Shown: positions 32,822-49,651 of the stretch, in pieces
Layout: every line of letters begins with the position of its first letter
How positions within the stretch are numbered: the first letter of the stretch is position 1
DNA from: Candidatus Angelobacter sp.
GTDB lineage: Bacteria; Acidobacteriota; Terriglobia; Terriglobales; Acidobacteriaceae
Direction: 5' to 3'
Length of the DNA stretch: 54,522 bases
Assembly (NCBI GenBank): GCA_025462835.1
Contig: JAOAPH010000153.1
Span: forward strand, 1 to 54,522
Program-made: the position numbers and the translations under genes
Notes under the pieces: generated by a model
What the model saw: only the letters and a program-made list of their open reading frames with translations
Database searches by the model: none
Told to the model about the DNA's origin: nothing

Positions 32822-32862
32822 GCCGGCGGTATTTGCGGTAAATAGGCATTTTCCATCTCTTA

Positions 32863-32888
32863 GGGCGCGCAGAAATGCGCCCCTTTTC
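32863..32888 (+). terminator. Rho-independent terminator of the acyl-CoA cluster
   Basis: GGGCGC and GCGCCC (32863-32868 and 32877-32882) form a stem with an eight-base loop, followed by CTTTTCT. It lies about 40 bases after the hydratase stop. Confidence 0.7.
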
Positions 32889-33050
32889 TATTCCTCGGCC
32901 ATTTGCCCACTGTTTTCATTGACTTTCCCCAACGCCCATATACAATTCTCCCGCTCCTTCCTCCCTCAATTTACCCAGGCCCTGAATTGCCGCCTCGCTC
33001 GGTAGGCAGACGGCGACGTGTTCATACCCTATTGCAAGAAGGATTTGACT

Positions 33051-36000
33051 ATGGCCTCGCGCAAGACCCTCGCCACCGTTTTCCTGTTGATTTCGTTTTC
33101 TTTGTTTGGCATTGCCCAGTCGAAGACACCCCCGCCCGATCTTTCCACTCTTCCGCGCATCATCAAGTACAGCGGCGCTTTGAAGACATCCGACGGCCAG
33201 CCGCGCAGCGGCACCGTCGGCGTGATCTTCGCCATATATGACAGGGAAGCCGGCCTTTCGCCCATTTGGCTGGAATCGCAGAGCGTCACCGCGGATGACA
33301 CCGGACACTACTCCGTCCTGCTCGGCAGCACCAACCCGGCAGGATTGCCCGCGAGCATCTTCTCCAGCGGCGAAGCGCGATGGATCGGCGTTCAGTCCGA
33401 CGGCCAGGCCGAACAACCGCGCACGTTGTTAGTCAGCGTTCCTTATGCCCTTAAGGCCGGCGACGCCGACACCCTCGGCGGCAAACCGCTTTCCGCTTTC
33501 TTACTCGCCGACACTTCGACCGCTTCGCGCGCACAGCGCGAGAAGACCGCCGCCATCAGCAATGGAGCCACGAGTGGCGTGGTTAATTTTGTGGCCAAGT
33601 TTGATTCCACTGCTTCCATCGTCAACTCCAGCATCTTTGACACCGGCGTTGCCGTCGGTATCGGGACCACATCTCCCGCAGCCACCCTTGATGTAAGCGG
33701 GCTCATCCGCACGTTGAACGGCATCAAGTTCGGCGATGGCACTATTCAAAGCACAGCCGTGCCCAGCAATTGCGCGGCAACGCAGATTGTGAAATGGACA
33801 GGCTCGGCTTGGTCCTGCGCGGCAGAGAGCGGAACCATAACCGGCATAACCACCACCGCGGGACTCACCGGAGGTGGTACCAGTGGAAATCTCATCCTGC
33901 AACTTGATCCCACCATCGTTCGCGCCGACGTCAGCAATAACTTCACCGCCCGGCAAAGCGTCATTGGAAGCACCGCCTCGGTGTTGTTGTCAGCCACGCA
34001 GAGCAATTCCGTCGTGCTCGCCGGCCAGCCCACATTCCTTCAAGCGCAGACATCGATTCCCGCAGGCGTCGCCGGCTATTCAACATCTCTTACCGGTACA
34101 GCGGCCGGTGTCGCCGGATTCAGCAGCAGCATCAGCGCGCCCGCAGTTCTGGGTTGGAATGGTTCCACCACGGGCGTTAATGATTCTGCAACGGGCGTTC
34201 TTGGCGTTACCGACAATCCCATCGGCCGCGCCGTAGAAGGCGAAGCAAACTCGCTGAGCGGCAACACCGTCGGCGTCCGCGGAAAATCAGTCAGCACCTC
34301 CGGAACCGGCATCGCTGGCAACGCGACCGCTGGCTCCGGATTTACAGTCGGCGTGTTTGGTGGTGTTAATAGCCCTGACGGAATCGGCGTCACAGGCAAT
34401 GCGTCATCGGGCAGCGGATTCACGGTCGGCGTAGAAGGAAACGTCAACAGCCCCCTCGGAACGGCTGGTCTGTTCACCGCACCAAGCAGTGTCGGTGCAT
34501 ATTTTCTACGCGGCAATGCGGGTGGCACCGATCGCTTCAAGGTCGATGGCACCGGCACGGTATTCGCGGCCGCGTATAAAGACCTAAACGGAAATCCCAT
34601 CAGCGGCGGCGGCAGCGGCACTGTCACCAGCGTCATCGCCGGCAGTGGACTCAGCGGAGGCGTAATCACTACCAGTGGAACTTTGTCAGTTGATTCCACG
34701 GTCGCCCGGGTGAACGCTAATAACAATTTCAGCGCCCCACAGACTTTCTTGAGTTCTGTTGGAGTTGTCGATATCAGTGCTGCGAACGGCCTCTTTCTCG
34801 CTACCCTCCCACCAAGCTCTCCCTCGCCGGTTGGCACAAATCGGGTTCTTGTAGAGGCTGGCGCTGGGCTGGATGGAATGTCGGTGGTAGCACAAGACGC
34901 CAATGGGGTGATCGACTTTCTTACGGGAGGCGACACAGCCGCGACCAACACCCGCATGCACATTGATGCTGCCGGCAAAGTGGGCATCGGCACGCAGACG
35001 CCGACTCAAGCCCTCGACGTGGTCGGAACCGTCAACGCAACGTTCTTCGTCGGCAACGGTTCTGGCATTACAGGGATAACCGCCACCACACTCGGCGGCG
35101 TCGCGGCAGGGAGCTATGCGCGCATAGACCAGCCGCAAACTTTTGCCACAACTCAGACTTTCAATGCCGGTGACGGCGGCCAGATCATCAGCGGGAAAGA
35201 CAACGGCACGGAGATTTTCACTGTCAACGGTGCGAACACCAATTTCACCGTCTCTGCATCGCAGGCCAAGCCCGGCCCCGCGACTCTCGACATCAATGCG
35301 CCCACCACTGATTATCCAGCGGCCATCCGCGGAGAAGCCACCAACACTGTTGGCATTGTCGGCGGAGTTCAAGGCATTTCTGCAAGCGTCGATGGCGGCG
35401 CGGGTGTTGCCGGAATTTCTACGACATTGACGGGCACCGGCGTCGGCGTCTTTGGTGGAGCGAAGAGCGACGGCACAGCCTACGGCGTCTCTGGCCACAC
35501 TTTCTCCCTCACAGGTGCTGGCGCCGGCGTCGTTGGCCAATCTGACAGTAGCGTCGGTGTAGGCGTCCAGGGCTATGCCCAAGCAGTGAGCGGCCCGAAC
35601 TACGGCGTGCAAGGAACCTCCGAAAGTACGAACGGTGTGGGCGTTCTGGGTCTGGCGAATTCCGCCTCCGGTTTCAATGTGGGCATTTTAGGAATCACAA
35701 ATAGTGCAACCGGCACGGCGGGCTTCTTCAAGAATGCCGCCGATGGGCAGATTTTGAGCGGACGGAACAGCAGCGGTCAAATATTCAGCGTCTCCGGCAC
35801 CGGTGCCGTCACCGCTACCAGCTTCACCGGCAGCGGCGCGGGGCTGACAGGAGTCACGGCAGCAACAGCAACCAATGCAACCCAACTCGGCGGCGTCGCC
35901 GCTGCAAATTTTCCAACACTAACCGCAGCTACCGACCAGAGCTTCACGAGCAGCCTTACATTGCCGGAATTGAATCTACCTGCCACGACATCATCAACAT

Positions 36001-39000
36001 TAGGAGTGATTAATCTGGGCGGCAGCAGCTTCATTCACAAAGTCGGAACCCAAAATACATTTGTTGGTGAGAGTGCCGGGAATTTTGCTCTCACGGGAAT
36101 TTCGAATTCAGGTATCGGGTACTTTGCACTCAACAGTTTGACCACGGGCAATTCGAATACCGCAGTGGGAAGGAATGCACTGAAAGCGACTACTTCCGGA
36201 GGCAGCAATGTCGCAATCGGTTTATCAGCACTGGCCAACAACACGACCGGAACTCAGAATGTGGCTCTGGGGACTGCTCTTACTAGCAACACGATTGGTG
36301 GTAACAACGTTGCAATCGGGTCTTCCGCTTTGGGGTCAAATATATCGGGAAACAGCAATATCGCACTTGGGCAGAGTGCTCTCAGCGTCAACACCACTGG
36401 CTTCCAAAACCAAGCTGTTGGAGTTCAAGCTTTGCAGAGTAACAGCACAGGCAATAATAATGCGGCGTTTGGGACTCTTTCGCTTTTAGCTGCTACTGCG
36501 TCCTTCAATTCTAGCTTCGGTTCTTCTGCCTTACGATCAACCACAACCGGGTCTCTAAATGCTGCCTTGGGTTACCAAGCCGGCTACACGTTAACGCCGG
36601 CTAATGCCAACACGACAGGGGCTAACAATACTTTTGTTGGCGCCAATTCCGGCCCCGGCACTCCAACACAACTGAACAACGCAACAGCAATAGGTTCGGG
36701 TGCGCTCGTCTCGCAGAGCAACTCCATCGTTCTCGGCGATGGCACCGTAAACGTCGGCATCGGCACGCAAACTCCGGCCCAAGCTCTCGACGTGGTCGGC
36801 ACTGTCCGCGCCACCAGCTATATCGGCGACGGCTCTGCATTGTCCAACATCACAGCGAGCAATGCGGCATCGCTCGGCGGCATCGACGCGGCCAACTATG
36901 CGCAGAACGGCGTCAGCAACACCTTCACCGCTAATCAGTCGGTTAACGCCAACACTGTCTCCGGTACCGCTTCCCTAAGTGTCGCTCAGGCAGGTGCAGG
37001 AGCCGGACTAAATATCTCTGCGCCCGGATTGGGAACATTTCCGAATGACGCGGTTATCGTCGCAACCGCGACCGATGCCAGCGGCGCATCCGCCCCCAAC
37101 GTTCCTCGCGCCATTCTGGCGATCGTCAGCAGCAGCGGCGGCCGCGGTGTGCAAGGTAACAGCCAAGCAACGACCGGGAACGGTGTCGGCGTGATCGGAT
37201 TTTCCTCGGGTAGTTCAGGATCGGGCGTCTATGGCCAAGAAAATTCGGCGACTGGTCCGACCAATGGCGTGGCCGGCGTTTCGCTGAGCACCAACGGCGC
37301 CGGTGTTTACGGTGAGGCTGACGCGACCTCCGGCAATACCGCCGGCGTGCGCGGAATCGCTCTTAGCCCTTCCGGAAAAGGCACTGAGGGTGATGCTTTC
37401 CCCACCACCGCAAACGCCGTCACCTCAGCGGGCACGGGCGTACTCGGCACATTCGGCTTCAATAGCGACTTCAGCACTAACCCTAACGCCACCGGCGGAT
37501 ACGGCGTGCGCGGTCAGACAGCCGGCTCCGGCGGCTTCAGCACCGGCGTCCGCGGCGATGCGCTCTCGAATACAGGGAACGTGATCGGCGTCGAGGGTTT
37601 CACTTTGAGCAATAGCGGAGTGGGCGTGAAAGGAGAAGCTGATGCATCCAGCGGCGTTACCGTCGGAGTGCTCGGCATTGTCACCAGCCCCTCGGGAATT
37701 GCTGGCTACTTCGAAAACGATGGCGGCGGAAAAATTCTGAGCGGAAACAACAATGGAACCGAAGTCTTCAGCGTCTCCGGAGCCGGAGTCGTCACCGCCA
37801 CCAGTTTCTCCGGTAGCGGCGCTTCGCTTACGGGAGTGACCGCCGCAACCGCCACCAATGCTACCCAGCTAGGTGGTGTGGCAGCGGCAAATTATCCAAC
37901 GTTGAATGCAGCTAGCAACCAGACCTTCACGAGCAGCCTGACCATGCCGCTGATGGCGTTGCCGACGACGACTTCCTCGACCAGTGGAGTGATCACGTCT
38001 AACGGCAACAGATTCCTTCACAGCTTCGGGACAAATAATCTTTTTCTTGGCGTGAACGCCGGCAATTTCAGCACAACGGGAACTGGTGGTAATACTGGAC
38101 TTGGAGTCTTGGCTCTTTCGAGCGTCACAACTGGGTTCAGCAATACCGCGACCGGTAGTAATGCGTTGAAGTTAAACCTTATAGGCAATCACAATACAGC
38201 CATTGGAGCTTCAGCCCTCCAGAACGCGACCGGCAATGGCAACACCGCCACCGGATCTGCAGCATTACTCTTAAACACCGCGGGAATCGAAAACACCGCA
38301 ACTGGACTCGGCTCTCTTTTGAGCAACACTTCCGGGAACTACAATATTGCGATTGGCTCTGATGCACTCAGTGGTAATACGACTGGCGCAAACAACACCG
38401 CACTGGGAAAATCTGCTGGGACTACCACTGCATTTGCCAATGAGAACACCACAGGATCCAACAACACCTTTATTGGATACAATTCCGGCCCCGGCACGCC
38501 GACGCAACTCACCAATGCCACCGCCATCGGCGCGAATGCTCTCGTCTCGCAGAGTAATTCCATCGTCCTCGGCGACGGAACCGTTAAAGTTGGCATCGGC
38601 ACTTCGACACCAACGCAAGCGCTCGACGTCGTCGGCAACATTAACGCGAGCGGCACGATCTCGGGAGACGGTTCAGGACTCACGAATGTAAATCCAACAC
38701 TTCTCGGCGGCGTGGCTGCAATCAGTTATGCGCGTTTAGATGTACCAACAGATGAGAGCTTCGCAGGCACTTTGACAACGCCCCAACTCAATCTGCCTTC
38801 AACGGCTTCTGCAGCAGTGGGCGTACTCACCATCGGTGGAAATAGGTTTGCACACAGTTTCGGTGTTCAAAACACGTTCCTGGGATCGGGCACGGGGAAT
38901 TTTGCCATGACTGGCGGCAGCAACACAGGTCTCGGATTTCAAGCGCTCTTGAACAACACAACGGGTACGGCCAACACCGCAACCGGAAGCCAAGCTCTCC

Positions 39001-41237
39001 AACTCAATACTACGGGCAGCAGCAATACCGCTAATGGCACTTTCACCCTCTTCTTCAACACCAGCGGCGGCGGAAACACCGCGAGCGGATACAGCGCTCT
39101 ATTCTCAAATAACATAGGAATCAGAAACACAGCGGATGGAGCTTTTGCCCTTACAACCAATACGAGTGGTAACCTGAATGTCGCCACAGGATTTCGAGCA
39201 CTTGAGCAAAACGCTTTCGGGAGTTCAAACAGCGCTAGCGGATACTACGCATTACAGCAAAACACTAGCGGAGATGCCAACACAGCTTTGGGATTTCAAG
39301 CCGGTTACACTGCAACCCCAGCCAACGCCAACACCACAGGCTCAAATAACACATTCCTCGGTTACAACTCTGGCCCCGGCACACCCACGCAACTCACCAA
39401 TGCCACCGCCATCGGCTCAGGTGCGCTGGTTTCGCAGAGCAATTCCATGGTTCTCGGGAACGGTTCTGTAAAGGTCGGCATCGGCACGGAAACACCAACG
39501 CAAACACTTGACGTCATCGGAACTGTGAAAGCCACCAGTTTCTCCGGCAGCGGCGCGTTGCTCACCGGCATTCCCAACAGCGCCACCTCGGGTACGTCAT
39601 TTGATACCGCCAATTCTCTGGTGGCAAGAAACGCCACGGGCGGATTCACTGCAGGAACCCTGACACTCGATGACGTCAACATCACCAGTCTCGCCGGAAG
39701 CTCGATAACCGGCAGCCTTGCCGGCGACATACTCACCCTGAATCAAGCCGGCGCAGGAAGAGCACTGGTCGCTACTTCCCAAGGCGGTAACGCAATCAGC
39801 ACCTCCAGCGTAAGTGGAAACGCGCTGTCGGCAAGCAGCACCAACGGACAGTCGGTTTTCGCTTCTTCCGATGGCGCCGTCGGCCTGTTCTCGCAGACCA
39901 CAGCCACCACCGCTGCAAGCGTTGCCATCCGTGGAACCTCCTTCAGCACAACTGGTAACAGCGTCGGCATGCAAGGCATTGCTTCCGCAAGCACGGCTGG
40001 CGTTGGTGTCGCCGGAACCGGACAAGCCGGCGGCGCGCAGGGCGTCGCTACTTCGTCCACCGGCTTTGGCGTAAAGGGTTTTTCGTCCTCCGCTACTGGC
40101 GCCACTGTCGGCGTCCTCGGACTGGTCAGCAGCCCCTCAGGCATCGCTGGTACCTTCAACAACACCGGCGGCGGACAGATCCTCAGCGGACAGAACAATA
40201 GCGTCGAGAAATTCAGCGTAAGCGGCACCGGTAACGGCACCTTCAGCGGCTCCGTCACCGCCACTAACTTTATAGGTCAACTCGGCGGTGTTGCCTCATC
40301 CAACTATGCCCGCCTGGATACCGGAAACTCCTTCGCGTCGACTCAAACCTTCTTGCCGGCTTCCTCCAGCACCGGCGTGGCCATCACCCAGACCGGCACC
40401 GGCACGGGGCTCGATGTCGAGACTGGGAGTTCCACCTTGCCTGCGTTGTTTGCGCACTCCAGTGCCACCAGCGGTTTTCCAACGGGCGTCTGGGGACAGA
40501 GCGATGCGCCTAGCGGCATCGGAGTGCGAGGCACGGGAACGGCTGCGACAGGTGGCGGAATCGGCGTCTATGGCGAGTCGTCTGCCCTCAGCGGCGTGGG
40601 CGTGTGGGGGCAGCCTACCCATCCCACCGGAAACACCGTCGGCGTATACGGTATCAACCCCAGCTCCGGAGGCACCGGTATCTGGGGCAGGGTCACGGAC
40701 ACTACCGGCGGGTCCACGGTGGGCGTGGAGGGAGATGTCTTCAGCGCTAACGGGATTGCCGGCAAGTTCGTCAGCAACAATTCCAGCGGCAAGATCATCA
40801 GCGGGCGCGACAGCATAAGTGAAGTCTTCGCGGTGAATGGTACAGGTAACATCAGCGCCTACAACGGCAACCCGACCGCCGGTAACGGCGTGGCGTCCGT
40901 TCACGGAAGCTTTTCCTCTGCGGTCGGTGCTCTCACGCCAGTCAATACCACTACACTATTCACCCCGTCTGGCGCGACGGGCGGCGGTCTCTATCGCGCG
41001 ACGTGTTACATGGTCAACACCGCAAGCGCAACCGGGCCGAATGGTATCGCTACTATCCACTGGACCGACGATTCCGGCACTGCGCAGAGCGGGATATGCT
41101 CAACGTTTGTTACCACAACCCTGGGCGATTACGTCACTGGTAGTGTGATGGTGCAATCGGCAGGGGCGATCACGTTTAGCGTCACTGCGAACGCCGCCAC
41201 CTACAAGATCTACATCAGCTTGGAGAAACTGATCTGA
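33051..41237 (+). CDS. giant secreted repeat protein with YadA-head-like modules
   Basis: One uninterrupted 8.2-kb frame encodes 2728 residues. A signal peptide occupies about residues 1-25 (VFLLISFSLFGIAQ). The body is modular. Five copies of GIGTxTPxxxLDVxG lie at about residues 203, 645, 1238, 1848 and 2144. LGGVAA-type motifs are found before many segments. Three YadA-head-like blocks of NTAxGxxAL repeats occur at about 1003-1226, 1663-1840 and 1940-2136, and GVxGxA/S spiral repeats lie between. The C-terminal 115 residues (GLYRATCYMVN, then IYISLEKLI) look like a small jelly-roll. There is no YadA anchor, LPxTG or T9SS tail. The motifs suggest a trimeric fibre related to phage tail-fibre and adhesin stalks. 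AAGGA precedes ATG 33051, and a strong terminator follows. The function, probably surface adhesion or matrix, is inferred. Confidence 0.9.
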   Translation: MASRKTLATVFLLISFSLFGIAQSKTPPPDLSTLPRIIKYSGALKTSDGQPRSGTVGVIFAIYDREAGLSPIWLESQSVTADDTGHYSVLLGSTNPAGLPASIFSSGEARWIGVQSDGQAEQPRTLLVSVPYALKAGDADTLGGKPLSAFLLADTSTASRAQREKTAAISNGATSGVVNFVAKFDSTASIVNSSIFDTGVAVGIGTTSPAATLDVSGLIRTLNGIKFGDGTIQSTAVPSNCAATQIVKWTGSAWSCAAESGTITGITTTAGLTGGGTSGNLILQLDPTIVRADVSNNFTARQSVIGSTASVLLSATQSNSVVLAGQPTFLQAQTSIPAGVAGYSTSLTGTAAGVAGFSSSISAPAVLGWNGSTTGVNDSATGVLGVTDNPIGRAVEGEANSLSGNTVGVRGKSVSTSGTGIAGNATAGSGFTVGVFGGVNSPDGIGVTGNASSGSGFTVGVEGNVNSPLGTAGLFTAPSSVGAYFLRGNAGGTDRFKVDGTGTVFAAAYKDLNGNPISGGGSGTVTSVIAGSGLSGGVITTSGTLSVDSTVARVNANNNFSAPQTFLSSVGVVDISAANGLFLATLPPSSPSPVGTNRVLVEAGAGLDGMSVVAQDANGVIDFLTGGDTAATNTRMHIDAAGKVGIGTQTPTQALDVVGTVNATFFVGNGSGITGITATTLGGVAAGSYARIDQPQTFATTQTFNAGDGGQIISGKDNGTEIFTVNGANTNFTVSASQAKPGPATLDINAPTTDYPAAIRGEATNTVGIVGGVQGISASVDGGAGVAGISTTLTGTGVGVFGGAKSDGTAYGVSGHTFSLTGAGAGVVGQSDSSVGVGVQGYAQAVSGPNYGVQGTSESTNGVGVLGLANSASGFNVGILGITNSATGTAGFFKNAADGQILSGRNSSGQIFSVSGTGAVTATSFTGSGAGLTGVTAATATNATQLGGVAAANFPTLTAATDQSFTSSLTLPELNLPATTSSTLGVINLGGSSFIHKVGTQNTFVGESAGNFALTGISNSGIGYFALNSLTTGNSNTAVGRNALKATTSGGSNVAIGLSALANNTTGTQNVALGTALTSNTIGGNNVAIGSSALGSNISGNSNIALGQSALSVNTTGFQNQAVGVQALQSNSTGNNNAAFGTLSLLAATASFNSSFGSSALRSTTTGSLNAALGYQAGYTLTPANANTTGANNTFVGANSGPGTPTQLNNATAIGSGALVSQSNSIVLGDGTVNVGIGTQTPAQALDVVGTVRATSYIGDGSALSNITASNAASLGGIDAANYAQNGVSNTFTANQSVNANTVSGTASLSVAQAGAGAGLNISAPGLGTFPNDAVIVATATDASGASAPNVPRAILAIVSSSGGRGVQGNSQATTGNGVGVIGFSSGSSGSGVYGQENSATGPTNGVAGVSLSTNGAGVYGEADATSGNTAGVRGIALSPSGKGTEGDAFPTTANAVTSAGTGVLGTFGFNSDFSTNPNATGGYGVRGQTAGSGGFSTGVRGDALSNTGNVIGVEGFTLSNSGVGVKGEADASSGVTVGVLGIVTSPSGIAGYFENDGGGKILSGNNNGTEVFSVSGAGVVTATSFSGSGASLTGVTAATATNATQLGGVAAANYPTLNAASNQTFTSSLTMPLMALPTTTSSTSGVITSNGNRFLHSFGTNNLFLGVNAGNFSTTGTGGNTGLGVLALSSVTTGFSNTATGSNALKLNLIGNHNTAIGASALQNATGNGNTATGSAALLLNTAGIENTATGLGSLLSNTSGNYNIAIGSDALSGNTTGANNTALGKSAGTTTAFANENTTGSNNTFIGYNSGPGTPTQLTNATAIGANALVSQSNSIVLGDGTVKVGIGTSTPTQALDVVGNINASGTISGDGSGLTNVNPTLLGGVAAISYARLDVPTDESFAGTLTTPQLNLPSTASAAVGVLTIGGNRFAHSFGVQNTFLGSGTGNFAMTGGSNTGLGFQALLNNTTGTANTATGSQALQLNTTGSSNTANGTFTLFFNTSGGGNTASGYSALFSNNIGIRNTADGAFALTTNTSGNLNVATGFRALEQNAFGSSNSASGYYALQQNTSGDANTALGFQAGYTATPANANTTGSNNTFLGYNSGPGTPTQLTNATAIGSGALVSQSNSMVLGNGSVKVGIGTETPTQTLDVIGTVKATSFSGSGALLTGIPNSATSGTSFDTANSLVARNATGGFTAGTLTLDDVNITSLAGSSITGSLAGDILTLNQAGAGRALVATSQGGNAISTSSVSGNALSASSTNGQSVFASSDGAVGLFSQTTATTAASVAIRGTSFSTTGNSVGMQGIASASTAGVGVAGTGQAGGAQGVATSSTGFGVKGFSSSATGATVGVLGLVSSPSGIAGTFNNTGGGQILSGQNNSVEKFSVSGTGNGTFSGSVTATNFIGQLGGVASSNYARLDTGNSFASTQTFLPASSSTGVAITQTGTGTGLDVETGSSTLPALFAHSSATSGFPTGVWGQSDAPSGIGVRGTGTAATGGGIGVYGESSALSGVGVWGQPTHPTGNTVGVYGINPSSGGTGIWGRVTDTTGGSTVGVEGDVFSANGIAGKFVSNNSSGKIISGRDSISEVFAVNGTGNISAYNGNPTAGNGVASVHGSFSSAVGALTPVNTTTLFTPSGATGGGLYRATCYMVNTASATGPNGIATIHWTDDSGTAQSGICSTFVTTTLGDYVTGSVMVQSAGAITFSVTANAATYKIYISLEKLI

Positions 41238-41276
41238 CCATGACTTGGCTGATCTGACTAAGACTGCTGCGTAAAG

Positions 41277-41306
41277 ACGGGAGCAAAACGCTCCCGTTTT
41301 TTTTTG
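41277..41306 (+). terminator. strong Rho-independent terminator of the giant gene
   Basis: ACGGGAGC and GCTCCCGT form a perfect eight-base stem with loop AAAAC, followed by nine T, 40 bases after the stop at 41237. Confidence 0.9.
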
Positions 41307-41345
41307 GCGAGTATTCGTGTTCTTGCTGAGCTAATCTTTTGTCCT

Positions 41346-41424
41346 TCTCAGTGCCTCTGTGTCTCTGTGGTGAAAACGAATTGACCTCTGACTGTTGACT
41401 ACTGTTTACTGACTACTGCCTCTC
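41346..41424. repeat. octamer and heptamer repeat tract before the lumazine synthase fusion
   Basis: TTCTCAGTGCCTCTGTG and TCTCTGTGGTGAA form an octamer-like element at 41346-41374. Six heptamers then run directly into the start codon: TTGACCT, CTGACTG, TTGACTA, CTGTTTA, CTGACTA and CTGCCTC (41381-41422). No ribosome site of the usual kind is visible between them and ATG 41425. Confidence 0.8.
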
Positions 41425-42300
41425 ATGATCAAGTCCATCACCACTGTGCGCCTCACCAAGTCCGCTAAAGACTTCGAGAAACTCTCTGCGCTCTTCGACT
41501 CCCTCGGTTTCGGACGCGGACACGGATGGAAAGACGGACACAGCCGCGGCGCTCCTTTTCTCGCCCCCGTAGGCAGCATCGAGATTGTTGATGGCAAAGC
41601 TCCAGCCGAAGGCGACCTTCTCGTCGAAGTCTCTGACCTTGACAGCGTGCACGCGCAAATCAAGAAAAATAAGATTGGCGACGTTACTGACATCAAGCCG
41701 ACACATTGGAAATCGCGCTACTTCATCTTCGAGCACGCAGCGACTATCAGACTTGCCTTCTGGTCATTCGATACCCCGCCGAAGCTCGAATTCCAAACTC
41801 TCGAAGGCGATCTACATGTTGCGGGCGCACGTTTCGCAATCGTAGTCAGCCGCTTCAATCAGTTCATCACTGACCGCCTGCTGCAAGGCGCGCTCGACGC
41901 GCTTCATCGCACCGGAAGCAAAGATGCCGACCTTGAGGTCGTTCGTGTCCCCGGCGCTTTCGAAGTCCCCATCGCCGCGCGCAAACTCGCATTGACCAAA
42001 CGTTTCGACGCCGTGGTCTGTCTCGGCTTGCTGATGCGCGGAGAAACATCGAACTACGAACATATCTCCGACGAAGTCGCCCGCGGCATCGGACAGGCCG
42101 CGCAGGACTCCGGCGTTCCGTGCGCATACGGCGTGCTCACCTGCGACACACTTGAACAAGCCATCGATCGCGCTGGGTTGAAATCCGGCAACAAAGGTTT
42201 CGAAGCCGCCATCAGCGCAGTAGAAATGGTTTCGCTAGCAAGAAAATTGAAAAACAAGAAATCATCCAGCAAGAAATCCGCTCGCAGCAGAAAGAAATAA
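41425..42300 (+). CDS. ribH: VOC/glyoxalase-like domain fused to 6,7-dimethyl-8-ribityllumazine synthase
   Basis: This is a 291-residue fusion. Residues 1 to about 120 resemble a VOC (glyoxalase/bleomycin-resistance) module: ITTVRLTKSAKDFEKLSALF, then LLVEVSDLDSVHAQI. From about 125 on it is lumazine synthase: RFNQFITDRLLQGALDAL, VPGAFEVP, CLGLLMRGET, then GVLTCDTLEQAIDRAG and GNKGFEAA. The catalytic His of B. subtilis RibH (His88 in RGATTHYDY) is replaced here by Asn210 in RGETSNYEH, a rare change that may lower the rate or shift proton transfer to the nearby His213. The C-terminus is a Lys/Ser/Arg-rich tail. nusB follows after 104 bases, the common ribH-nusB neighbourhood. Confidence 0.88.
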   Translation: MIKSITTVRLTKSAKDFEKLSALFDSLGFGRGHGWKDGHSRGAPFLAPVGSIEIVDGKAPAEGDLLVEVSDLDSVHAQIKKNKIGDVTDIKPTHWKSRYFIFEHAATIRLAFWSFDTPPKLEFQTLEGDLHVAGARFAIVVSRFNQFITDRLLQGALDALHRTGSKDADLEVVRVPGAFEVPIAARKLALTKRFDAVVCLGLLMRGETSNYEHISDEVARGIGQAAQDSGVPCAYGVLTCDTLEQAIDRAGLKSGNKGFEAAISAVEMVSLARKLKNKKSSSKKSARSRKK

Positions 42301-42317: not shown

Positions 42318-42404
42318 TCTCAGTGTTCTCCGTGCCTCCGTGGTGAATGGGTCCACGCGTTCGTGATACAACTGACTACTGACTACTTGCTACTGACTAC
42401 TGCC
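42318..42404. repeat. octamer and heptamer repeat tract before nusB
   Basis: TTCTCAGTGTTCTCCGTG followed by CCTCCGTGGTGAA (from 42318) is the same element as at 41346. The tract CTGACTA, CTGACTA, CTTGCTA, CTGACTA, CTGCC (42372-42404) ends directly at ATG 42405, as before the fusion gene. Confidence 0.8.
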
Positions 42405-42911: not shown

Positions 42912-44963
42912 TCACTTCGGGCGCACGGCGACAAAATCAGGAGACACCGCAGCGCCGGCCGAATCTTTCAGGCTGACTGCGATCTGCTGCGCGTCAGTGC
43001 CAGCATTCACATCGATGCGATGCACATCGTTTGTTCCGAGCGCGCCGACATAAACTTGCGCGCCGTCGAGTGTTGCGCCGCCGGTTGTGGTTGCGGTCGC
43101 ACCGCCCTGCAAGGCGATGGATGACGCTGTTGCAGCCGTTGCGTTGTACGTCAAAACTTTATTGGAATTATTGGTGACAAACACGTGCACGCCGTTGGAG
43201 GTCAAGATCATCAGCTTAGGCGTGACTGTGCTTCCGAATGCGACCGTGTTCAGGCTGTTGCTCACGGTCGGCGGGCAGTTGCCGTTCGCGGGCGTGGCAA
43301 TGTTGGAGACGGTCACGTCATACACTCTGCTGCCATCCACGCCAAAGACACGGGTGGAATCAAAGTTGGACGTGATCAGCAACGGAGTTGCGGTACTCCC
43401 GATTGTGCTTACCAGACTGTTGTCGCAGGTGGCGCGCACGGTGATTGAATTCACGGCGCCGCCCGCCAAGTATGCCAGCGAGCCTTGGCTCAAGAACGTA
43501 ACGTCATTCGCAGCGGCATTCAATGTCAGTGCCTGGAACGGAAGCGCCGGCGAGAAGATGGATAGCGTCGCGTTGCCGTTGCTGACGATGTAGGCCTTGA
43601 GACTGTCGGCGGAAAAATCCGCGGCAGTCGAGACCGTGGTGATCCCCAACTTCGCGAAGGTGCTGGTGGCCACATCGACGACAAACGTCTGCGGAGCGGT
43701 CGGAGTCTGGTCCGCGACGATGACCTTCTTGCTGTCAGGCGAGATGGCCAACACTTTTCCGGGTACGGAAAGTGCGGTTCCGAGCGCATTGGTAGCAGGG
43801 TTGAGCGGGATGAGCACGGTGTTCGTGCCGATGTAAGCGGTGCTTCCGCTCTTATCAAATACCAGCGAGTTGATCAGCGGTTGGGAATTGTTGATCACCG
43901 GGATCGTGATTGCCGTGCCGGCGACGTTGGTCACGGAATCGATAGGAACGATGGTGGTCGATGTTGCGCCGGTGACATATACCGTGGTGCTGGAGGAGCC
44001 TGTCACCGTTGTTGACACAAGATTGCTGTACACGGGAACACCTGCCGACGCGCCCTGATTGCAGGTTGGCGGAGTACAGCTGGCGATGACACCGGCGTTG
44101 CCAGCGCCGATTGCCGTGATCAGGCCGGTCGCGGTCACACCAGCAACAGTCACTTGCGAGCTCGAATAAGTGAGCGTCGATCCGGTGATTGGATTTCCTG
44201 CGGTGTCTATGACGGTTGCCGTGAGTTGCTGGCTGGCAGCGACGGCGCCGGTGAATGAGGTCGGGGTCAAGGTGATCGACGCTGGCGGGCAATCGATTAG
44301 CGTTATTGGGAGCGAAAACACGCCGTTCAAAGAGGCGCTGATCTTAACGCTGCCCGGTTGGACGGCAGTTGCCACTCCGGTCGTAGCATCCACCGTGGCG
44401 ACGGTCGTGTCCGTAGTGGAGTATGAGAACGTGCCCGGATTGGTGAGAGGAACAGTCGGATTGATGGAATCGAAAGCTTGTGCGGTGAACTGCCGCGTTG
44501 CTCCCTGAGACGCGCATGCCGGGCCGGCAGCAGTTGTGAGCGTAACGCGGGCGATGCGGTTGTGAACGGAGACCGGAACGGTTGCGGTGAGGCTGCCCGC
44601 GGTGACAGTTATCGCCGCGGTGCTTGCAGGAGCTACGGGCGGGTTCTTGACCTGGCAGACTGTTGGCGTAGTCAACGAATCCCAAGTGCCAGCGCAGACC
44701 AGGCCAGCGGTGGAGACCTGAACATTGGCATCGTTGGAGGCGTATGTCGGAGTAAGCGTAAGGACCTGCGTCCCGTTGCTGTCGAGAATGGTTGGAGTGA
44801 GTTGGACGAATTGCCCGAAGTTCATCGAGAGGGTGGCCGGGCTGATGGTCATGGTGTTGGTAGTAGTGGTGGTGGAACTACTTCCTCCGCCGCAACCGCT
44901 GATACCAATAACAATGATGAGAGCAAGTGCAAGTAGAAAGCCAATGAGCTGCGACTGCCGCAT
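42912..44963 (-). CDS. lipoprotein with bacterial Ig-like domains and a beta-propeller-like C-terminal half
   Basis: This is a 683-residue exported lipoprotein. The signal peptide ends in the lipobox ISGC (Cys24), followed by GGG and a Ser/Thr-rich linker. Residues about 35-320 contain three Ig-like units of the Big_2 type (ITVTAGSLTATVPVSV, then FSYSTTDTTVATVDATTGVATAV, then ITLTPTSFTGAVAASQQL). Residues about 330-680 are repeats resembling YncE-type propeller blades (VYVTGATSTTIVPIDSVT, and AYIGTNTVLIPLNPATN). It is probably anchored to the outer membrane and exposed to the periplasm or surface. It is a single-gene unit with a shared terminator at 42847. Confidence 0.88.
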   Translation of the reverse strand: MRQSQLIGFLLALALIIVIGISGCGGGSSSTTTTTNTMTISPATLSMNFGQFVQLTPTILDSNGTQVLTLTPTYASNDANVQVSTAGLVCAGTWDSLTTPTVCQVKNPPVAPASTAAITVTAGSLTATVPVSVHNRIARVTLTTAAGPACASQGATRQFTAQAFDSINPTVPLTNPGTFSYSTTDTTVATVDATTGVATAVQPGSVKISASLNGVFSLPITLIDCPPASITLTPTSFTGAVAASQQLTATVIDTAGNPITGSTLTYSSSQVTVAGVTATGLITAIGAGNAGVIASCTPPTCNQGASAGVPVYSNLVSTTVTGSSSTTVYVTGATSTTIVPIDSVTNVAGTAITIPVINNSQPLINSLVFDKSGSTAYIGTNTVLIPLNPATNALGTALSVPGKVLAISPDSKKVIVADQTPTAPQTFVVDVATSTFAKLGITTVSTAADFSADSLKAYIVSNGNATLSIFSPALPFQALTLNAAANDVTFLSQGSLAYLAGGAVNSITVRATCDNSLVSTIGSTATPLLITSNFDSTRVFGVDGSRVYDVTVSNIATPANGNCPPTVSNSLNTVAFGSTVTPKLMILTSNGVHVFVTNNSNKVLTYNATAATASSIALQGGATATTTGGATLDGAQVYVGALGTNDVHRIDVNAGTDAQQIAVSLKDSAGAAVSPDFVAVRPK

Positions 44964-46349: not shown

Positions 46350-48008
46350 CTATTCTCGCGCAGATTGAACTTTAACTCTTGTGTGCATGCTTTGGCTTGG
46401 CTTGACCTCGATAGTCTCGCCATACTGTAAGAAACGGCGCATCACGTCCATCTTCGACCATTCCAGCCCCCAGCCATCTTGTATGGCGACGAGGGTATAT
46501 TTCCCTGGCATCACTACCCGGAGAAGGAACGTACCATCGGTGTCACTCTGGTCTCTGCGAAATATGCTCTGGTTGTGGTCTGGATCGTCCGGAATCAAAA
46601 CGACCATGGCGCCGGCGATCGGCTTGCCTTCCTTCGAATGAACTGTTCCTTCGATGCTGGTGGCTACATCGGCCATAGTCACGTTCAAAATCACAGGAGA
46701 TAGACCGACTTCAATAGTTCCGCCGCGCACTTTGGCGCCGGTTGCCGTAAAGCTTTTGATGACTCCTTGCCGGCTAAAAGCAGAGTATTGAAATACGCCG
46801 GGAAACAACTGGAAGGGGACAAATTCTCCCTTGGCATTCAAATGCGCTTGCACTACATCATGTGTATCGCGTTCTTCGAATTGGATAATGGTTTCGTGTA
46901 GCGGTTGATTGCTTCCTTCCAGCGCGAGGGTGCCTTTGACGGAAGTCCCTTCCGCTGGCTTTCGATATTCAACATTGCCGTCCGGAGAAATCTCTACATC
47001 CTGACGACGTTCACTTGCGGCACTCTCTTCAGTCGTGGTCCGCTGGCGCAATCTGTAACGGCCCGGCGGAATCCCCGCAAAATCAGTCGCCCCCTTTTCG
47101 TCGATCCAGACACTCGCCTGCGGCATGAACATTGACATGTCGAAGACCCTGCTTTCGATCATAAACTGGGTATTTGGTTCTTCTCCTCTGATGGACAAGC
47201 CAAAGCCAGCTTCGCTGTTTAGCTTCATGTCGGCAACGAAGCGATCGCCGGGACGTAGTTTGATGGGCGTGGCACTTGCGGAATCCAAAGCGCCGGAAAA
47301 GTAGGTGATTGGAAACGTAGCATTCAGATTGGCGTCTCCTTCTTCAGCTCCTGGCGCTGGTTGATCATTGCTTGAGAAAAGCACCTGCTGCCGATATTGC
47401 GCGTACCAGGGCCTGGCCATGACCACCACGAAGTATTCGCCAGGTGGAAGCCGGTAAAAGTGAAATGTGCCTACACTGCCGGTATTCGTGCTAGCCCGAG
47501 GATGAGTGGAGACCTTCCCGAGTAGGAGGCCGTGGTGGAAAAGTATTACCTGGCCGTTCGCTACCGGATCGCCAAATTCATCCTCGACCCTGCCAGTGAT
47601 GGAAGCAGACGGCTGCAAACGGAAGACGATGTTTTGCGAATCCTTGTCCGGACCAACGGCAACAGCGGAGGTGAATTCGTCATGTTCATTCAAGGCTTGG
47701 GTCCGGAAGCCGTTTCGACGAGCCACTAGGGAATATTTTCCGATTGGAACATTGTTGAACACGAACCGGCCATCTCCACCAGTGGTCACTGTCATGCCTC
47801 TTGGAACTCCCTGCGGGGATTGCGGATTGAAATCGGCCGGAAGTGTTGGACTTATCATGACTTGGCAATTTCCCACCGGCGAACTGTTGCTGGTATTCAC
47901 CACGATGCCCGTGATGCGAAAGCCGTCGTCCGTTGGGGAAGCCGTTGCCGCTCCCGCTATGACAAGCACCGCGGTAAATATGTAATGGATGACAGCAAGG
48001 CGCTTCAC
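46350..48008 (-). CDS. secreted protein with carboxypeptidase-regulatory-like domains
   Basis: This is a 552-residue exported protein. A signal peptide at about 1-23 is followed by repeated Cna_B/carboxypeptidase-regulatory-like beta-sandwich domains: FRITGIVVNTSNSSPVGNC, ITGRVEDEFGDPVANGQV, and IEGTVHSKEGKPIAGAMV. Each continues with G-x-F-x-F-x-x-V/L-P-x-G-x-Y-x-L/V (for example GDGRFVFNNVPIGKYSLVA). The start is GTG 48008, which overlaps the stop of the upstream gene (GTGA), indicating translational coupling. Expansion of this family is typical of Acidobacteria. No outer-membrane barrel follows, so it is probably a periplasmic or surface binding protein. Confidence 0.85.
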   Translation of the reverse strand: MKRLAVIHYIFTAVLVIAGAATASPTDDGFRITGIVVNTSNSSPVGNCQVMISPTLPADFNPQSPQGVPRGMTVTTGGDGRFVFNNVPIGKYSLVARRNGFRTQALNEHDEFTSAVAVGPDKDSQNIVFRLQPSASITGRVEDEFGDPVANGQVILFHHGLLLGKVSTHPRASTNTGSVGTFHFYRLPPGEYFVVVMARPWYAQYRQQVLFSSNDQPAPGAEEGDANLNATFPITYFSGALDSASATPIKLRPGDRFVADMKLNSEAGFGLSIRGEEPNTQFMIESRVFDMSMFMPQASVWIDEKGATDFAGIPPGRYRLRQRTTTEESAASERRQDVEISPDGNVEYRKPAEGTSVKGTLALEGSNQPLHETIIQFEERDTHDVVQAHLNAKGEFVPFQLFPGVFQYSAFSRQGVIKSFTATGAKVRGGTIEVGLSPVILNVTMADVATSIEGTVHSKEGKPIAGAMVVLIPDDPDHNQSIFRRDQSDTDGTFLLRVVMPGKYTLVAIQDGWGLEWSKMDVMRRFLQYGETIEVKPSQSMHTRVKVQSARE

Positions 48009-49651
48009 TCGGTCCTCCGAATCAAGGTGCAGGCAATGCTGGCCTTTTGATTTGTTTGCAGTTCGACGACTGTGGCACTTGCACTGAATTTTTTCAGCAC
48101 ATCGGGATTCGCGTATTCCAAATCGCTCAGATCTTCAAACGCATAGAACGAATATTTTCCGGGAGGCAGGGAGAAATAAAGAGCCTGTTTAAGGCTGAAT
48201 AATTGGCGCACAACAGGCTTGGCGGGCGACTGTTCGGCTATGGCAAACACCGCGACCGCGGTTTCCTGCTGTTCGGAAGCAGAAACAACAGCGACCTTCA
48301 GGCTGGCAGAATCATTCCGCAAGACAACGTCTATGGGCTGCGAAGCTCCAGGTCCCACTACGAGTGGTTCAAATCTCAGGTCGGTGCCTTCATGGAGAAT
48401 AGATTGTGCATACCACACGTCGCTTTCATTCACTTCCACGCGATAGCGTCCGTACTCGACGTTGGTGATTGCAGAGGTCCAGTTCTCCGGCCCGCCTTTT
48501 GTTTCGGACGCAATATCCGGATGAAACGGGTCCAACGAGATTAATCTCAGCGAAACCGGTCTGTTGAGTACTCGATCTGAAGCACCCCGGAACTCCGGAG
48601 ATGATTCTCTCAATTCCAGTCTTTGGACGGTTATGGGGATGTACGTCTGGCTCATTGCGATCTGCAGTCCGCGAATGTCCCTGGAGGGATTGAGTTCGAC
48701 CTGCCCGTAAAAGTGGTTGCCCTGGTCGTCTTGAGAGTTAACCTTCAGCAAGCAGGGTCCCGCAGTGAGCCGGGCGCGAAAGCCCTCTGTTCCATCACGG
48801 CGCTGTGCGATGGACATCTCCTGGCCCGCGCTGTTGAGAAATTGCAACGAGAATCTGCCGGCGACTCCGCCGACCACACTGCCGGAGACGACGAACGATG
48901 GCGAAGCGTTCAGCGAAAAATCATTCCGCTGGTGCTTAGCTGCCGCCACGTGAATAACAGTGGCGTCAGCAAGTTCTTGCACTCCCGGATAGAACATTTG
49001 CGCATATGCCAAACGATCAGTGCCTCCGGCCTGAAAGGGATCGGAGAGATCCTTCCATGACGGGCCGGCTGACACTATGTAGTCGCCCGGTGGCAATTCC
49101 GAGAACTGAAATTCGCCATCCTCATCGGTTTGAATCTGCCGGAAGTCCCGTTTTTTCCGAATGCCCTCCTGAATAGAAAAGGAGAATATTTTTACGGGAA
49201 CATTATCCAGCGGCTCGCCGCTTGAATCTGTGATCCTTCCTTCAATGGTTGCCTCGGGAATTAATTTCACAGTTATAGGAGAAGTCTCCAGACCTATGGA
49301 GATCATTACTTGACGCACTCCCCCTCCCAGTTCGGAGTGGCCCTCCTGAATGAAGCCGGGCTTGATCACATTCAAAGATGTCTGAATCCGCGGCAGATGC
49401 GCGAAGAGGAAATGGCCCTCGCCATCTGAGAAGACCATCCGTTGAGTCTGCACATCTATCTGGACCAATGCGTGACTGACCGGTTCACCAGTGACGGAAT
49501 TCACGATCGTGCCGCTCAACGAGTATTTCGCTTCAGCGGGGCTGGGCGGATTGTAGCGTCCAATTTGCGGCGCCAGAGGGCTAGTGGTGAAGAGAAGAGA
49601 CGTAGCGAACAAAAGCCGCCACCACGTGAGCAGACACGCCGACGGTTTCAT
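48005..49651 (-). CDS. secreted protein with carboxypeptidase-regulatory-like domains
   Basis: This 548-residue paralogue of its downstream neighbour has an N-terminal signal (LLFATSLLFTTSPLA). It contains at least two regulatory-like domains: YSLSGTIVNSVTGEPVSHAL with GEGHFLFAHLPRI, and IEGRITDSSGEPLDNVPV with GEFQFSELPPGDYIV. The two genes form an operon with a four-base overlap. Sequence identity between them is low, so duplication is old. It may bind carbohydrate or protein at the cell surface; this is inferred only from the fold. Confidence 0.85.
   Translation of the reverse strand: MKPSACLLTWWRLLFATSLLFTTSPLAPQIGRYNPPSPAEAKYSLSGTIVNSVTGEPVSHALVQIDVQTQRMVFSDGEGHFLFAHLPRIQTSLNVIKPGFIQEGHSELGGGVRQVMISIGLETSPITVKLIPEATIEGRITDSSGEPLDNVPVKIFSFSIQEGIRKKRDFRQIQTDEDGEFQFSELPPGDYIVSAGPSWKDLSDPFQAGGTDRLAYAQMFYPGVQELADATVIHVAAAKHQRNDFSLNASPSFVVSGSVVGGVAGRFSLQFLNSAGQEMSIAQRRDGTEGFRARLTAGPCLLKVNSQDDQGNHFYGQVELNPSRDIRGLQIAMSQTYIPITVQRLELRESSPEFRGASDRVLNRPVSLRLISLDPFHPDIASETKGGPENWTSAITNVEYGRYRVEVNESDVWYAQSILHEGTDLRFEPLVVGPGASQPIDVVLRNDSASLKVAVVSASEQQETAVAVFAIAEQSPAKPVVRQLFSLKQALYFSLPPGKYSFYAFEDLSDLEYANPDVLKKFSASATVVELQTNQKASIACTLIRRTE

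Follow-up and report, generated by a model that had tools for sequence, protein, structure and literature searches.

A giant fibre gene in Acidobacteriota probably encodes a large form of the mosaic adhesive trimer fibres described in Bdellovibrio

Introduction

The stretch of DNA analysed here (the window; 54,522 nucleotides from Candidatus Angelobacter sp.) contains a very long gene for a repetitive, fibre-like protein. This raises the question of which kind of fibre it encodes, and whether that kind is new. A preliminary description, made from the letters of the window, had proposed a secreted trimeric fibre of a new type that lacks a known anchor. A possible counterpart is found in predatory bacteria. 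The mosaic adhesive trimer (MAT) fibres of Bdellovibrio bacteriovorus, such as Bd3182, Bd2133, Bd1334, Bd2439, Bd2734 and Bd2740, are defined by a signal peptide, a conserved beta domain of ~130 aa, a trimeric shaft of mosaic build and a tip that varies (PMC10769870). They are surface-displayed, and their N-terminal domain has been proposed to lie at the cell surface (PMC10769870).

Results

The fibre gene stands alone in an insertion between housekeeping genes

The reading frame at 33051-41237 (+) was free of stops throughout and translated into 2728 aa, as the preliminary description had stated. Translation from the in-frame GTG at 33018 would lengthen the protein by 11 residues; the ATG at 33051 was preferred as the start since a typical Sec signal peptide begins there. 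No lipobox cysteine was found when this signal peptide was read. The protein has a high content of G, T, S and A, and just four of its residues are cysteines. With its ATG, signal peptide, promoter-like -35/-10 elements and strong terminator, the coding frame is real. The following features were assigned to the gene and its borders:

32822..41424 (+), 8.6-kb insertion holding one gene, flanked by those for enoyl-CoA hydratase and lumazine synthase, from comparison with congeners
32863..32882 (+), hairpin resembling a terminator, assigned to the upstream operon, from a scan, a consensus match only
32919..32946 (+), promoter-like TTGACT-16-TACAAT of the fibre gene, sigma-70-like scan 10/12, a consensus match only
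33051..33116 (+), Sec signal peptide, residues 1-22 (MASRK, hydrophobic core, GIA), read from the sequence
41273..41301 (+), intrinsic terminator that closes the fibre gene, a stem of 12 pairs with a T run, fold z -3.85

In three congeners (G023, G090 and G125) the genes for enoyl-CoA hydratase and lumazine synthase are separated by 1, 9 and 91 bp, respectively. The same gap in the window measures 8603 bp and holds the fibre gene only, with its own promoter-like site and terminator. The fibre gene is thus a one-gene insertion, and a simple insertion in the lineage of the window is the most economical reading. The giant fibres of the congeners sit elsewhere and have no neighbour in common. Across 20 loci with relatives no gene was conserved beside the fibre genes, and therefore no anchor partner is proposed.

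Some other features of this region were recorded. The lumazine synthase RibH (41425-42300, +; PF00885 at residues 135-272) has an extra N-terminal part of ~130 residues, which looked VOC/glyoxalase-like by eye and had no Pfam match at 1e-3; the protein is kept in the three congeners with 75-80% identity. A secreted Ig-like (Big_2) lipoprotein of 683 aa (42912-44963, -) adjoins nusB; it occupies the same place in three congeners with an identity of only 51-61%. Two neighbouring secreted proteins of carboxypeptidase-regulatory-like repeats (PF13620) are encoded at 46350-49651 (-), and short TGACTACTG-type direct repeats lie just 5' of two gene starts, at 41396-41420 and 42372-42402.

The shaft consists of old duplicated modules

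The preliminary description had noticed YadA-head-like NTAxGxxAL repeats together with a GIGTxTPxxxLDVxG motif, and both stood out far above shuffled sequences. The protein contains 13 copies of N[TIV]AxGxx[AS]L (shuffle maximum 1), five of GIGTx[TS]PxxxLDVxG (shuffle 0) and, in addition, 15 of GVxG...GxGVxG (shuffle maximum 1). The NTAxGxxAL repeats have a period of 17 residues and form three blocks, while the five GIGT-type motifs, referred to below as capping motifs, lie at residues 203, 645, 1236, 1848 and 2143. The shaft was mapped as follows:

33657..33701 (+), capping-loop motif 1, GIGTTSPAATLDVSG, from the motif map and shuffle test
33756..33944 (+), CxxxQxVKWxGxAWxC...GLTGG module, residues 236-298, found in fibres of Bdellovibrio as well
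34050..34475 (+), GVxG repeat block 1, residues 334-475, from the motif map and self-comparison
34983..35027 (+), capping-loop motif 2, GIGTQTPTQALDVVG, aligned to Bd3182 (8OJN), E 0.0015
35307..35729 (+), GVxG repeat block 2, residues 753-893, from the motif map and self-comparison
35520..36890 (+), supermodule copy A, residues 824-1280, from self-comparison
36054..36740 (+), 17-residue NTAxGxxAL block 1, residues 1002-1230, period 17, phrog_23837 E 2.9e-43
36756..36800 (+), capping-loop motif 3, from the motif map
37146..37712 (+), GVxG repeat block 3, residues 1366-1554, from the motif map and self-comparison
37497..38720 (+), supermodule copy B, residues 1483-1890, from self-comparison
38028..38570 (+), 17-residue repeat block 2, residues 1660-1840, period 17
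38592..38636 (+), capping-loop motif 4, from the motif map
38748..39593 (+), partial module copy C with 17-residue block 3, residues 1900-2181, from self-comparison and period
39477..39521 (+), capping-loop motif 5, from the motif map
39927..40157 (+), GVxG repeat block 4, residues 2293-2369, from the motif map and self-comparison
40470..40790 (+), GVxG repeat block 5, residues 2474-2580, from the motif map and self-comparison

A self-comparison of the gene, which had been suggested as a check, showed internal duplications far above shuffles, with a best off-diagonal match of 202 bits compared to at most 51 in 15 shuffles. The modules of about 2 kb reported earlier are real: 35779-36010 matches 37762-37993 with 75% DNA identity at a spacing of 1983, and 36528-36827 matches the DNA at 38364 and 39249 with 65-71% identity. 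At the protein level, chunked self-comparison revealed a supermodule of ~660 residues (824-1280), which has a second copy at 1483-1890 (up to 64%) and a partial third at 1900-2181.

It had also been supposed that the number of modules changes by recombination between near-repeats. Module number and order indeed differ among congeneric fibres. The module copies in the window gene, on the other hand, are only 60-75% identical in DNA, and the gene contains a single exact repeat of at least 25 bp, which is 30 bp long. The duplications are thus old and are not near-repeats primed for recombination at present. A congeneric gene for a 3301-aa fibre (L037, 7885-17799, +) harbours 23 exact repeats of at least 25 bp, the longest of 86 bp, and may be the better candidate for an ongoing change in module number.

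Phage tail fibres and YadA-type adhesins do not account for the protein

As the preliminary description had pointed out for the GIGT-type motif, the shaft has features in common with phage tail fibres. The PHROGs matches in the shaft belong to the phage virion and tail families phrog_23837 and phrog_4636, and the repeats recur with 33-45% identity in tail fibres from phages of many hosts. We therefore considered whether the gene is a tail fibre left behind by a prophage or a tailocin, as these matches would suggest. The signal peptide, the housekeeping neighbours and the insertion of one gene only all speak against such an origin, and the N-terminal domain described below is nearly absent from viral contigs. 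There it was found at one locus, which may be host DNA. This origin is largely refuted and was rejected as very improbable. The viral-collection contig in question (L075, 5468-7663, +) encodes an S74-ended fibre with the N-terminal domain beside seemingly cellular genes, and it may have come from a host and been filed among the viruses by mistake.

The head-like repeats, and matches of PF05658 to related fibres near the cut-off, would also be compatible with a trimeric autotransporter of the YadA type that had lost its C-terminal barrel. The repeat period is 17 instead of 14-15, the barrel is absent from every relative seen, the conserved N-terminal domain is foreign to YadA, and the C-terminus is formed by an independent tip that recurs. 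We consider the loss of a barrel hardly credible. An intact YadA autotransporter was likewise rejected: no match to the Pfam YadA_anchor was obtained at E 1, and the C-terminus is all-beta and soluble-looking. A scan of the 2728-aa protein with Pfam and NCBIfam gave zero domains, and hence no sign of a YadA barrel, an LPXTG motif or a T9SS tail, in agreement with the preliminary description; Peptidase_S74 was absent by Pfam as well. A sortase- or T9SS-dependent adhesin was rejected on the same scan and because the C-terminal sequence held no LPXTG or T9SS signal.

A capping loop and an N-terminal domain are common to the window fibre and MAT fibres

When the window protein was searched against PDB sequences, the only meaningful match was 8OJN, a structure of Bd3182 from Bdellovibrio (E 0.0015). 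It spans the stretch rMxIDxxGxVGIGTxxPxxALxVxGT, which in Bd3182 is the solved capping loop (PMC10769870) and of which the window shaft carries five copies. In addition, the module at residues 236-298 matched fibre ORFs of B. bacteriovorus kdesi (phmmer 1.4e-8 to 1.8e-5, in a small set). None of the kdesi fibres that we read showed the 17-residue NTAxG repeats.

Directly behind the signal peptide the window protein contains a further domain:

33159..33512 (+), N-terminal beta domain, residues ~37-154, from hhalign to the MAT N-domain and an AF2 beta-sandwich

Bdellovibrio genomes were located by a published 16S primer; a 60-aa piece of Bd3182 searched against genome contigs gave zero matches. 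A profile of 29 acidobacterial N-domains (A1) matched B. bacteriovorus kdesi and other Bdellovibrionota with E-values from 4e-5 to 0.12. In each of the matches that were read, the domain lay directly behind the signal peptide of a long fibre ORF. The best kdesi fibre ORF (L118) contains the SNLSILRYSDAG... region of Bd3182. A second profile was built from the N-domains of eight Bdellovibrionota fibres (A2). Aligned with hhalign, the two profiles gave a probability of 98.2% and an E-value of 2.9e-14 over 114 columns, a value that is not fully independent because the members of A2 had been chosen via weak A1 matches. A2 found six kdesi fibre ORFs at E < 1e-40, L118 among them. In the reverse search of acidobacterial genomes with A2, the best E-value was 0.002 and that of the window protein 0.23, and the matches fell mostly on the SVPYAL...LGG..ASxF end of the domain.

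An AF2 model of the N-domain, computed from a two-sequence alignment, was a beta-sandwich with a core pLDDT of mostly 75-93 and without a clear fold match in the PDB (Z <=6.9). The lack of a strong match agrees with what has been stated for MAT fibres (PMC10769870) and proves nothing. A PDB sequence search with the N-domain and the tip gave nothing beyond chance.

These findings bear on two statements of the preliminary description. The idea of a new type of fibre does not hold, since the N-domain and the capping-loop motif are shared with the MAT fibres described in Bdellovibrio (PMC10769870). That the protein lacks a known anchor is correct as far as Pfam and NCBIfam anchor domains are concerned, but a conserved domain of ~120 residues at the N-terminus, the part proposed to lie at the cell surface, had been overlooked.

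It could be argued that the fibre is unanchored and is released into a biofilm as part of its matrix or as a sheath, in which case the N-domain would be no more than a base for folding or trimerisation. No known anchor domain, lipobox or conserved neighbour that could act as an anchor partner was found, which is in line with this idea. However, across fibres with otherwise unrelated shafts and tips, conservation is highest in the N-domain, and its counterparts in Bdellovibrio are surface-displayed (PMC10769870). Release is thus rather unlikely, though less so than an origin from phage or YadA.

The tip may resemble that of Bd2133 and is exchangeable

40851..41234 (+), C-terminal tip, residues 2601-2728, without S74 chaperone, from a relative in G029 and an AF2 model

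One clear relative of the tip was found, with 35% identity; it closes a fibre of 554 aa in the genome G029, and the N-domain was not found in that fibre. Searches of viral contigs, phages and 396 genomes of the phylum gave nothing but a weak match with an E-value of 6e-4. The single-sequence AF2 model of the tip was an all-beta sandwich (pLDDT 55). After re-alignment, its top VIA rows were those of the Bd2133 MAT tip (8OND, Z 8.3; 8OK3, Z 8.1; 113/121 residues), at a pLDDT of 55 and with unrelated jelly-rolls reaching 7.9. The likeness to the Bd2133 tip in this model is suggestive, not proof.

The C-terminal tip of these fibres is exchangeable. N-domain fibres elsewhere end in S74 or in many other tips, and Peptidase_S74 was found on three of the four fibre ends scanned in one genome (G032; L046 and L047). 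Fibres of 3301 aa (G023) and 2007 aa (G090) have tips that are 82% identical on different bases and at different lengths, and the fibres of G090 and G125 have modules in common, up to 92% identical, in a different order. Shared tips on unlike bases, together with reordered modules, indicate that base, shaft and tip evolve separately.

N-domain fibres recur in Acidobacteriota and are longest in the genus of the window

Of the genomes searched, 33/150 in the family and 41/297 in the phylum carried the N-domain, and one held as many as 21 copies (G032, 5,650,368 bp). The N-domain gave zero matches on plasmids. Open frames longer than 1900 aa were found for five of 12 in the genus of the window, compared to none of the 64 frames from the family's other genera, where the longest was 1281. 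The congeneric frames measured 1956, 2061, 2644 and 3305, and the longest frame elsewhere in the phylum sample was 1564. We did not find a paper on such fibres in Acidobacteria in the literature searched.

Discussion

We conclude that the window fibre is a giant acidobacterial form of the known MAT kind, in another phylum than Bdellovibrio. The gene probably encodes a giant MAT fibre with its N-domain as a base at the cell surface, a trimeric shaft and an adhesive tip. Judging from the sequence, Sec would export the fibre via its signal peptide, and the N-terminal beta domain would sit at the cell surface on a partner, a position as proposed for MATs (PMC10769870). About 2400 residues of capped beta-helix-like segments and repeat modules would then form a long shaft, presumably trimeric by analogy with the solved MAT tips. 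The exchangeable C-terminal beta domain may be the adhesive tip, binding a glycan or another surface ligand. The shaft grew by whole-module duplication, as its internal repeats show, and tip and base are swapped between fibres by recombination, as the comparison of fibres shows. The gene itself arrived at its present site as a single-gene insertion, given that the site is empty in the three congeners. Bd3182, with 922 residues, has been modelled at ~550 A; by this measure, a very rough guess for the length of the fibre would be 0.15 micrometre.

In soil the fibre likely serves to touch other cells or surfaces; there is no tie to predation in the data here. MAT fibres were first seen as a kit with which a predatory bacterium recognises its prey. 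The base domain is shared with Acidobacteriota, where it reaches 21 copies in one genome, which makes this kit broader than Bdellovibrio. Acidobacteriota offer many new genomes in which a common surface partner of the MAT base can be sought, and the giant forms show that shaft length, too, evolves separately from base and tip. Tentatively, one acidobacterial genus could have built MAT-type fibres of 2000-3300 residues by module amplification, two to three times longer than any found elsewhere in the family. These would be very long exchangeable contact fibres of soil bacteria other than Bdellovibrio, anchored by a surface receptor common to phyla; we regard this wider reading as possible, though somewhat doubtful.

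Among known systems, YadA trimeric autotransporters have similar NTAxGxxAL-type head repeats, whereas the window fibre has no C-terminal barrel, a period of 17 and no Pfam YadA match. The NTAxG tail fibres of phages (phrog_23837; Pelagibacter phage HTVC111P and others) have the same type of shaft repeat, with 33-45% identity, but are virion parts without the architecture of signal peptide and N-domain. The S74-ended acidobacterial fibres (for example L046 and L047 in G032; L075) carry the N-domain, and L075 also has GIGT motifs and NTAxG repeats; unlike the window fibre, they are roughly 700-1050 aa long and are closed by a Peptidase_S74 chaperone. The MAT fibres of B. bacteriovorus have, like the window fibre, a signal peptide, a beta N-domain, a mosaic shaft, capping loops and a varied tip, and, like its acidobacterial kin, they occur in many copies per genome, swap tips and end in S74 or not. 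In contrast to these fibres of typically ~1000 aa, the window fibre is ~2.5 times longer at 2728 aa, belongs to another phylum, has no known link to predation, and combines blocks of 17-residue NTAxG and GVxG repeats with a tip of its own.
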